Of a stretch of 64,000 bases of DNA, positions 3,801 through 43,253 are shown piece after piece. Within the stretch, counting starts at the first letter, position 1; every line of letters begins with the position of its first letter. A model generated the notes under the pieces. The model was not told the origin of the DNA. It was given only the letters and a program-made list of their open reading frames with translations, and ran no database searches. Source of the DNA: Marinilactibacillus piezotolerans (GTDB lineage: Bacteria > Bacillota > Bacilli > Lactobacillales > Carnobacteriaceae_A); the NCBI RefSeq assembly GCF_900169305.1, contig NZ_FWDP01000004.1, positions 620,001-684,000 on the forward strand, in the 5' to 3' direction. Made by a program: the position numbers and the translations under genes.

Positions 3801-4086
3801 TCGCTCTCAACATACTGGCAACCACATGTTTACAAGCTCCGGCATTTTTTTCAAAAGGAAGGCAAGAACAGTGATATTTTTTCGCAACACCATTTGGGTA
3901 GAATCTCAGATTGACTTGTTCTGTTTTTTGATCTTCTACACTAAATGATAATGTGTTCGCCGGCTCATCTACACTAGTCAAGTGTACAGTGCCTGCTTTA
4001 AACAACTGACTGCCTTCTGAGTAAACGTTGGAACTAGAGGCTAATGAATTAATGGTTGTTTCGGGAAAAAATTGCTTTTTAAACAT
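802..4086 (-). CDS. SWIM zinc-finger SNF2-family DNA helicase/translocase
   Basis: A DNA-dependent ATPase of the bacterial RapA/YwqA-like SNF2 group, probably acting on protein-DNA complexes or stalled transcription. An N-terminal SWIM zinc finger is visible at about residues 64-93 (CSC followed by CKH). A long linker matching the bacterial SNF2-associated region covers about 200-600. The helicase core follows: motif I DDMGLGKT near 670, motif II DESQ near 773, motif III SGTPIENN, and C-terminal motifs V-VI AGGTGLNLT and DRVHRYGQ near 1040. DESQ in place of DEAH is common in this family. The open frame allows an ATG at 4095, but AAAGG directly abuts it; the ATG at 4086 has proper spacing and is chosen. 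About 1094 residues, full length. Stands alone, so the partner is unknown. Confidence 0.92.
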   Translation of the reverse strand: MFKKQFFPETTINSLASSSNVYSEGSQLFKAGTVHLTSVDEPANTLSFSVEDQKTEQVNLRFYPNGVAKKYHCSCLPFEKNAGACKHVVASMLRANEIQSNDLKKVGQLRPESTLKEPMFSYKKSEEAIRQLIQVSKQEISRQSNDYKNQAIKFEFVLNISGTGYAYAYDFYMKAGIDRLYVVKNIPHVISEILEGRTYEFGKNFTYDPDQHGLNPWDRKMLEVLYDVYQLVRSATPVGYASSYQNKNELEIPSRSLKLVLKTLEKTDGGFVRFGRPPKHLMKLSDLDNVLITDSFDRFPLSFKLEKKDKLYHFSIAEENADELELNFHRGANLVEWNHEFFFLKTDQYKLLSSLMEVFDKTERAPLVLRSRELTEFASTVLSQLSSFLDIEMNTDVQQTVYQEELVAQCYIDTVNDQLHVSPVFKYGSITIYPLRDQPIEEEADKVVIRQLIKEDYLLRMAHEALSTAVVKDGRWVLETLDELSEFLYESLPVLAEQFEIFMSVNARRLVYEPKTAPSLSIELNRNSNLLDVSFDAEDIHAEDLKEIIKKLNNNKQYYRLSNGKILNLKEEKFRQLNETVQKMDIESKDISKNMSVPVFQGLSVLEDSIIKKGNQFKKLAEQLLEPQNITFDLPDHLNAELRPYQKTGYNWLKSLDHYGFGGVLADDMGLGKTLQTITFLLSKIQESGGRYMIICPSSVLYNWQHEFKKFAPELDTVLVSGSIEEREAIISQTEDQDSVILITSYPLIQRDFLLYQNQSFKTIVLDESQNVKNSAAKTTQAVHQLKADTKFALSGTPIENNLGELWSLFSIIQPGLFKNRKGYKQLDQSRIAAKIRPFVLRRLKRDVLSDLPEKTETTEYIDLTTDQKRIYQSQLSLIREEVKGMIRENSFERNRIRVLAGMTRLRQICCDPSLVINDYEGHSAKLERLLEYLEEARLNGKRVVLFSQFTSMLSIIRERLDQQEIDYHYLDGQTKNEDRLTLTTRFNMGEKDLFLISLKAGGTGLNLTGGDTVILYDSWWNPAIEDQAADRVHRYGQKKAVQIIRLIATGTIEERINELQAKKRELIDTVIETGNEQTISSLSKDEVLSLLND

Positions 4087-35848: not shown

Positions 35849-35864
35849 ATGTAACCGCTAAAAT
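35849..35864. promoter_or_regulatory. cre-like site upstream of licT
   Basis: TGTAACCGCTAAAA at 35850-35863 fits the short cre consensus TGWAANCGNTNWCA with one mismatch and ends 6 bases before the -35 box. Confidence 0.55.
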
Positions 35865-35869
35865 AACTG

Positions 35870-35898
35870 TTGACACTATTTTTAATCTATGTTTCAAT
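35870..35898 (+). promoter_or_regulatory. Promoter of the licT-bglP operon
   Basis: TTGACA, 17 bases, TTCAAT. The first RAT begins about 8 bases after the expected start point, matching the layout of the second beta-glucoside operon at 46762. Confidence 0.65.
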
Positions 35899-35912
35899 GT
35901 TAAAGAACGTGA

Positions 35913-35944
35913 AAATTGTTACTGTTAAATCAGGCTATATTTTA
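35913..35944 (+). promoter_or_regulatory. RAT-like antiterminator element in the licT leader
   Basis: Contains TTGTTACTG and CAGGCTA in the spacing of the ribonucleic antiterminator bound by LicT/BglG proteins. No hairpin with a T run follows, unlike the other RATs here. Confidence 0.65.
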
Positions 35945-35970
35945 TGTTCAAATCTGTTAGTCGACTAATA

Positions 35971-35988
35971 CGTCTAAAGGGATAGACG
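35971..35988 (+). promoter_or_regulatory. Hairpin enclosing the licT ribosome binding site
   Basis: CGTCTA and TAGACG pair perfectly, with the Shine-Dalgarno bases AAGGGA as the 6-base loop, four bases from the licT ATG. Confidence 0.6.
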
Positions 35989-35991
35989 CAA

Positions 35992-36828
35992 ATGAAAGTA
36001 AATAAAGTAATTAATAATAATATTGTTCAATCTATAAATGAATCAGATGCTGAAGTACTTGTTATGGGAAAAGGAATCGGTTTTAAAAAGAGTGTCGGCG
36101 ATCTTATTGATCAAGAAAAAGTTGAAAAGGTGTACACAATCACTTCCCACTTATCTACCAATAAGCTGGAACAATTATTAGCTAATATCAAATTAGAACA
36201 CTTGCAGGTAGCCAATGAAATCATCAGCTATGCAAAAGTTTCTTTAGGTAAAAAGCTGAGTGAAAATATTTTTTTGACCCTTACGGATCATATTGATTAT
36301 GCTATTGAACGTTTTAACACTGATCTCCCTATTAAGAATGCTCTACTATGGGAAATTAAAAGATTTTACAATCATGAATTTCTAATTGGTAAAGAAGCAC
36401 TGACCATTATACAGCGTAAACTCGGTATTCAATTACCAGAAGACGAAGCTGGATTTATAGCACTTCATATCGTTAATGCAGAACTTGACATGGCAAAGGT
36501 TAGTCAAGTTTCCGAAATGACGCAAATTATTCAAAGAATCATGAACATCATAAAATATCATTACAAGGTGGACATAGATGAATACTCTTTAAATTATGAA
36601 CGATTCATAACACATCTTAAATTTTTTGTACATCGGTTATATAGCGGTGTTGAATTAGAAGCAGATAAAGATACCGGCTTTCTTTTTATGCTGAAAGAAC
36701 GTTATGCAAAAGAATATGGATGTGCATTGAAGATCAGAGATTACATTATTAAAGAGTTTGGTCGTGACCTTAAAGAAGACGAAATGATTTATCTGACCAT
36801 CCACATTCGCAGAATTACAAGTAAATAA
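35992..36828 (+). CDS. licT: BglG/LicT-family transcription antiterminator
   Basis: Binds RAT RNA and allows read-through into beta-glucoside genes when the sugar is present. The RNA-binding CAT domain covers residues 1-55 (VMGKGIGFKKSVGDLID). PRD1 (about 70-170) and PRD2 (about 180-278) carry the regulatory histidines, in LTDHIDYAIERF, ALHIVNAE, THLKFFVHRL and YLTIHIRRI. Full length, 278 residues. RAT-like elements lie before it and directly after its stop codon, where the second overlaps a terminator ahead of the PTS gene. The closest arrangement is bglG-bglF of Escherichia coli. Confidence 0.94.
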   Translation: MKVNKVINNNIVQSINESDAEVLVMGKGIGFKKSVGDLIDQEKVEKVYTITSHLSTNKLEQLLANIKLEHLQVANEIISYAKVSLGKKLSENIFLTLTDHIDYAIERFNTDLPIKNALLWEIKRFYNHEFLIGKEALTIIQRKLGIQLPEDEAGFIALHIVNAELDMAKVSQVSEMTQIIQRIMNIIKYHYKVDIDEYSLNYERFITHLKFFVHRLYSGVELEADKDTGFLFMLKERYAKEYGCALKIRDYIIKEFGRDLKEDEMIYLTIHIRRITSK

Positions 36829-36852
36829 GGATTGTTACTATTCAATTAGGCT

Positions 36853-36858
<6 letters not shown>
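36829..36858 (+). promoter_or_regulatory. RAT element before bglP
   Basis: GGATTGTTACT followed by AGGCTATACCT, an almost canonical LicT target. It starts at the base after the licT stop codon and overlaps the left arm of the terminator at 36853. Confidence 0.88.
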
Positions 36859-38837
<1,979 letters not shown>

Positions 38838-42404: not shown

Positions 42405-43253
42405 TTAACGATTCAATTCTGAGTATTTCAACAGTCGGTTGATATGGACTGCTATATAAGTCAGTTCATCTTTCGGTATCGACTGGTGATGCACTTCCTG
42501 CATATATTCCTTAATCTTAAAAGCAATATTCATTGCTTCAGGATACAAGGTTGAGATTTGTTCAAACAATTCATCGTCTTTCTCTTCCATAAGATGACCA
42601 GATAAAAAGCGATCCACAAAGAATTTAACGTGAGTAATAAAACGACTGTAATGAATAGAGTCAGTTTGCAGATTTGTATTCAAATGGTATCGAACGAGAT
42701 TGACGATACCGCCAATCATTTTGGCTTTTTTCATTCCATCTTTGTTGTCATTGGCTGAACCTTGAGCATTGATCAGGTGGAAAGCAATATTTGCTGCTTC
42801 TTCTTCAGGCAGTTCTATATCAAATTCTTTATTCACTAATACTCTAGCGTACTCACCAACTTGGAATTCTTCTGGATAGTAGTTTTTCACTTCCCAGTAT
42901 ACACGATTTGAAATGTTGATCCCTTTTCTGGCTCTTTCCACTGCAAAATGTAAATGATCCATTAAAGTAAAATAAATACTTTGCTGCAGCTCGGTATCTA
43001 GATGCTGTTTGGAATAAAGGATAATCTCTTGAACCATTGACAAGTAAATTTCCGGTATGTTACTCAGCAGCTCCAGTACTTGCTGCATTCGGAGGTCTTC
43101 TGCAGATAAGAATACTTGATCAATTTTCGACTGATCGATTTGTTCACCGGGTTTTGCTCCAAAGCCAATTCCCTTGCCGAACGCAACGATTTCTTTACCT
43201 TCTCTTTCGATTAGTACCACGCTCGTATTTAAGACTTTTTTGATCCGCGCCAC
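42405..43253 (-). CDS. BglG/LicT-family transcription antiterminator (second copy)
   Basis: The 282-residue RNA-binding antiterminator of the second beta-glucoside operon. CAT domain 1-57 (IVAFGKGIGFGAKPGEQID), PRD1 with LMDHLHFAVERA and AFHLINAQ, PRD2 with THVKFFVDRFL and YIAVHINRLL. The start is GTG with AGGAGGGG before it. It is the last gene of the operon, so it raises its own level once read-through at the RAT (46717-46746) begins. It probably also reads the other RATs in the window, whose sequences are similar. Confidence 0.93.
   Translation of the reverse strand: MARIKKVLNTSVVLIEREGKEIVAFGKGIGFGAKPGEQIDQSKIDQVFLSAEDLRMQQVLELLSNIPEIYLSMVQEIILYSKQHLDTELQQSIYFTLMDHLHFAVERARKGINISNRVYWEVKNYYPEEFQVGEYARVLVNKEFDIELPEEEAANIAFHLINAQGSANDNKDGMKKAKMIGGIVNLVRYHLNTNLQTDSIHYSRFITHVKFFVDRFLSGHLMEEKDDELFEQISTLYPEAMNIAFKIKEYMQEVHHQSIPKDELTYIAVHINRLLKYSELNR

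Follow-up and report, generated by a model that had tools for sequence, protein, structure and literature searches.

A RAT hairpin apparently uncoupled from transcription termination in the licT leaders of Marinilactibacillus and its relatives

Proteins of the BglG/LicT family are textbook antiterminators, and the closest known counterparts of the locus examined here are the attenuators of Bacillus subtilis LicT-bglP and Escherichia coli bgl. The locus lies in a 64,000-nucleotide stretch (the window) of the 2.29 Mb genome of Marinilactibacillus piezotolerans, and it shares with these systems a LicT orthologue, the RAT core, its position in the 5′ leader and a PTS partner. It differs from the BglG, SacY and LicT attenuators in that no terminator overlaps the RAT of the licT leader, the lower stem of the RAT is extended and stable by itself, and a hairpin containing the Shine-Dalgarno sequence (SD) stands before the start codon. 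Terminator-less RATs are themselves not new: as cited in PMC12502629, Harwani (2012) and Gordon (2015, 'not only antitermination') put forward such sites in E. coli and B. subtilis. These resemble the window in carrying a RAT without a terminator, but are putative and belong to diverse genes, whereas the window type is a single leader kept through a LicT clade together with SD structure. A post-transcriptional layer that works through RNase III has been described for the 5′ UTR of Enterococcus faecalis NagY (PMC9981650, PMC12502629), but the NagY leader retains a conserved RAT-overlapping terminator and has no described counterpart of the two stem-loops, SL-A and SL-B, that follow the RAT in the window.

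The Rfam family RF03530 (bglG-cis-reg), a C. difficile bglG/licT leader motif (PMC11477304), resembles the licT leader of the window in being structured and in preceding bglG or licT, but that leader gives no match at the gathering cut-off, and the only match in this genome lies elsewhere and is poor (24 bits at E 0.04; gathering score 80). Neither the window nor the licT leaders of the 16 loci scanned contained a known Rfam element. Translational riboswitches also sequester the SD in a leader hairpin, but here the ligand would be a protein, and the window shows no exclusive alternative pairing. Related papers deal with sacXY (Tortosa and Le Coq, 1995) and with the translation of C. glutamicum bglG (Tanaka, 2011). 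In the literature searched, whose scope excluded most subscription papers, we found no description of translational or terminator-free control of licT.

The initial annotation proposed a promoter and a RAT ahead of licT with no terminator, and both the sequence and the terminator scans bear this out. All of the features concerned are on the forward strand. The promoter is of the sigma-70 type (35870-35898), with a −35 hexamer TTGACA (35870-35875) and a −10 hexamer TTCAAT (35893-35898) separated by 17 nt, and the predicted transcript start is at about 35905. The licT gene (35992-36828, ATG at 35992) encodes a 278-residue BglG-family antiterminator with a CAT RNA-binding domain and two PRDs (PF03123, PF00874) that scores 375 bits against the LicT equivalog profile NF046042 (cut-off 300) and is kin to the LicT-CAT of PDB 1l1c. 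It contains N10, G26 and F31, which we take to be the RNA-binding residues of the CAT domain, and K5, N8-N10, G26 and F31 are invariant across the group of leaders to which the window belongs. Identified by NCBIfam and Pfam profiles, licT forms one operon with bglP (36939-38837), a beta-glucoside PTS IIABC gene (TIGR01995, 719 bits), and the gap between them holds a classical RAT overlapping an intrinsic terminator (36829-36911), which serves as an internal control. A second LicT-like protein with CAT_RBD and PRDs is encoded at 42405-43253 on the reverse strand; it is 34% identical to the first, and its score of 293 bits falls short of the LicT cut-off (300). Inspection by eye also reveals cre-like sequences just 5′ of the −35 (TGTAACCGCTAAAA, TGAAAGCGTTAATT and TGAAAACGCTAATA, at 35849-35866 of the window and in loci L033 and L045), which suggests possible CcpA control.

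A scan of genome contigs yielded 69 LicT-encoding loci, and 70 licT leaders entered the comparison. An attenuator-type terminator was taken to be a segment that pairs with the 3′ strand of the RAT and precedes a T-run. No terminator-like site was found by the terminator scans between the licT RAT and the ATG in the window, and no intrinsic terminator overlaps the 3′ strand of that RAT. Across a LicT clade of two subclades the attenuator-type terminator is missing: there is none in the 22 leaders of the window subclade (Marinilactibacillus, Alkalibacterium, Amphibacillus, Halolactibacillus, Isobaculum, Enterococcus and Lactococcus, with the nearest licT relatives in Marinilactibacillus and Alkalibacterium) and none in the 21 of a sister subclade, as against 24 of the 27 leaders outside the clade. 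The terminator of the licT-bglP intercistronic RAT is kept in 21 of 21 window-type and 21 of 21 sister-type loci (that of Lactococcus piscium stands outside the count, leaving 42 testable of the 43 clade loci), and LicT is therefore still expected to act as an antiterminator before bglP. At least 42 of the loci examined thus carry the RNA site twice, side by side in one operon, with a terminator in one case and without in the other, a natural experiment on what the RAT-protein complex does beyond antitermination and one that makes the question of the terminator-less RATs directly testable.

In a tree of 67 LicT proteins the terminator-free carriers form one group of 42 (support 100/100), within which the window subclade has support of 100/95 and the sister subclade 98/83. 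Since this one group holds all of the terminator-free carriers, a single loss of the terminator followed by long retention of the RAT is the simplest reading. L. piscium (L067) was omitted from the tree because of its frameshifted licT, which runs out of frame after five codons, near position 3990 of that locus, at an A-run one base short relative to the other species; this is either a sequencing error or a broken gene, and intact copies occur elsewhere.

The 22 leaders of the window subclade share a layout of promoter, RAT with extended lower stem, variable spacer, SL-A, SL-B and start codon. In the window the RAT core (ATTGTTAC...GGCTATA, 35915-35939) lies within an imperfect hairpin, ATTGTTAC...AGGCTATA, resembling the bglP RAT of the same genome. 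Below the core, GAACGTGAAA (35905-35914) pairs with TTTTATGTTC (35940-35949) at 10 of 10 positions; the annotation had recognised the element correctly but bounded it at 35913-35944, and folding and conservation extend it by 10 bp below the core, to 35905-35949. The extension brings the predicted stability to −11.2 kcal/mol as against −2.0 for the core alone, and in the 12 leaders examined the ranges are −6 to −16 and −1.4 to −7 kcal/mol, respectively. Across the subclade 84% of lower-stem cells are paired and seven pairs show double changes, a level of pairing that none of 2000 shuffles attained, though the shuffles ignore relatedness; RNAalifold agrees.

These patterns bear on the suggestion, made at the outset, that the RAT could be a relic. 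A decaying attenuator would account for a terminator that is missing here and present in the outgroups, but the RAT core is kept in all 43 leaders of the clade, and the covarying stem extension has been gained, not lost. Moreover, RAT identity is 68-100% and SL-A identity 77-100% between species whose licT four-fold sites are only 18-41% identical (L067 uncounted). We regard decay as most improbable, and the conservation argues that a licT leader with its RAT uncoupled from termination is a selected arrangement, neither chance nor relic. A second possibility is that transcription is still controlled, by a non-canonical or Rho-dependent premature stop against which the RAT acts as antiterminator. 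Antitermination is the norm of the BglG family and the terminator scans detect classical intrinsic terminators only, but an attenuator-type hairpin with a T-run follows the RAT in none of the 43 leaders, and within the window subclade the RAT has no competing pairing; a hidden stop of this kind is, in our estimation, very unlikely.

The annotation had also drawn attention to a CGTCTA/TAGACG hairpin enclosing the SD just before the ATG, and named its conservation in relatives beforehand as a test. The hairpin is present as SL-B (CGTCTA-AAGGGA-TAGACG, 35971-35988), with the SD AAGGGA (35977-35982) filling the loop, and it recurs throughout the 22 leaders. Its pairing is kept while the arms vary, with a closing pair of C-G, A-U or G-U and a fifth pair of A-U, G-C or G-U. 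The covariation, which the annotation had asked to be checked, is modest: the paired fraction was reached by 4 of 2000 shuffles but the double-change count by 680 of 2000, again with relatedness ignored, so that support for SL-B pairing is modest and weaker than that for the RAT lower stem. Taken singly such structures are not rare, as a 6-bp hairpin around the SD was found at 7 of 46 SD-bearing genes of the window under a lax rule allowing G-U, and in 37 of 5000 dinucleotide shuffles of the licT leader; the leader as a whole folds with z = −2.0. The argument against chance comes from the 22 leaders, in which the structure is conserved and compensatory changes occur in the lower stem of the RAT and, less strongly, in SL-B.

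The presence of the SD within a conserved hairpin raises the possibility of translational autoregulation in the window, in which LicT on the RAT would make the SD more or less accessible to ribosomes, by itself or via a partner, without refolding. The action on translation that the annotation had considered finds no support in its simple form, a switch by RNA refolding: the computed openness of the window SD is 0.99 with the RNA free, with the RAT forced and with the RAT blocked, and is thus independent of the RAT. Pairing of the RAT 3′ strand with the SD was also rejected for this subclade, because cognate duplexes (mean −6.1 kcal/mol) are no better than non-cognate ones (−6.7 kcal/mol) in the 20 of 22 leaders scored, the window and L033 being the two unscored. 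A direct effect on ribosome access is favoured by the position of the SD and by the exclusion of RAT and SD predicted in the sister subclade, which suggests that control of SD access may be a shared theme. Against it, the RAT and SL-B fold independently, some 42 nt separate the end of the RAT hairpin from the ATG in the window, and the RAT-to-SL-A spacer varies in length, which argues against a fixed contact. We consider this the main rival to the reading developed below, and unlikely.

In the sister subclade the relationship between the RAT and the SD is different. Its core members (Niallia, Metabacillus, E. casseliflavus and their kin) carry a RAT 3′ end, CCUAUUUUUU, that is predicted to pair with the SD region, AAAAGAAUAGG, the one exception being L065, and the RAT and the SD-sequestering structure are therefore predicted to be mutually exclusive. 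Over all 21 leaders cognate RAT-SD duplexes average −8.9 kcal/mol as against −6.9 for non-cognate ones, and in the 11 core leaders mean SD openness is about 0.07 with the RNA free and 0.30 with the RAT forced, although L055 and L056 hardly shift and L065 moves slightly in the opposite direction. The pairing is invariant in the core, without covariation. By eye, the licT leader of L068 has GAGCU in the RAT and AGCUU close to the SD, and those of L071 and L072 have GGGCU and AGCCU, which looks like a compensatory change tying the RAT to the SD region. With RAT and sequestering structure exclusive of each other, RAT formation would free the SD, and the sister subclade, most clearly the Niallia and E. 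casseliflavus group, is predicted to use a translational anti-sequestration ON switch with LicT as its ligand, a protein analogue of the riboswitches noted above.

At the licT leader, then, LicT probably controls its own mRNA once transcription is under way and not by antitermination. For the window subclade a clue is provided by the position of the RAT, as the core lies 15-17 nt from the −10 in 22 of 22 leaders, whereas the distance from RAT to start ranges from 76 to 92 nt. If the transcript begins some 7 nt beyond the −10, as mapped for S. mutans bglP (PMC1489936), its first base is predicted to be the foot of the extended RAT. The RAT would then sit at the very 5′ end, kept folded by its own lower stem, where active LicT, signalled by sugar, would bind it and act on the finished leader. 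A stable protein-bound hairpin flush with the 5′ end is a known protection for Gram-positive mRNAs. Together with the precedents of GlpP, which is reported to stabilise glpD mRNA (PMC7430163), and of NagY and RNase III (PMC12502629), this leads us to favour, at a probability of roughly 45%, the explanation that LicT on the 5′-terminal RAT caps the 5′ end and delays the decay of a licT(-bglP) mRNA that is translated poorly. SL-B, by holding the SD, would keep basal LicT synthesis low, and LicT as a sugar-dependent 5′ cap would give positive autoregulation without attenuation. The absence of any RAT-SL-B link in the RNA of the window subclade counts against this cap, and the cap leaves the sequence conservation of SL-A without explanation. 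The broader proposal is that a terminator-free RAT gives the LicT clade post-transcriptional control over LicT synthesis, one subclade using translational anti-sequestration and the other a 5′-terminal RAT together with the SD hairpin and the conserved SL-A. We advance it tentatively; if true, BglG-family proteins would be both antiterminators and regulators of translation or stability on one mRNA.

SL-A (TGTTAG-TCGA-CTAATA, 35955-35970) is conserved in sequence, with few or no differences between Enterococcus and Bacillaceae, and gives no sign of covariation (1421 of 2000 shuffles). The hairpin is weak, at −1 to −2.6 kcal/mol in the leaders in which it forms, and its tetraloop (35961-35964 in the window) occurs as CTAG, TCGA or TTAA, each of them self-complementary though the loop bases are free to vary, possibly reflecting a dimer contact or a hidden pairing. 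These properties could point to another protein or a small RNA acting on SL-A and SL-B, or to the SL-A palindrome as a DNA operator, with the RAT separate. Strong matches to a covariance model of the two hairpins (R1, built from 17 leaders and blind to the Marinilactibacillus and Alkalibacterium forms) were confined to 15 of 395 Lactobacillales genomes and one of 398 Bacilli genomes, already among the 15. Those read by eye lie between RAT and licT, and four weaker ones look like chance; apart from the latter the module was found solely before licT in these genomes. A RAT plus SL-A pattern search recovers the window, L033 and Alkalibacterium forms as well. In two genomes the palindrome repeats no more than at control level, and the neighbouring genes examined differ between species with no shared DNA-binding regulator seen; the operator of a regional or global regulator was rejected on these grounds, as was CsrA-type repression at the SD hairpin, csrA being absent from 11 of 11 genomes tested. 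An outside factor at SL-A seems to us clearly unlikely.

Two further candidates were set aside. Pairing of SL-A with the GGCUA of the RAT (UAGYY:GGCUA) is possible by eye in most leaders but shows no covariation, and a 13-codon leader peptide (35944-35985) is not conserved in L033, where it stops after six codons. Rfam elements do occur near other loci (L080 1550-1624, L097 11-88 and L045 1108-1212), namely RAGATH-18, skipping-rope and a TPP riboswitch.
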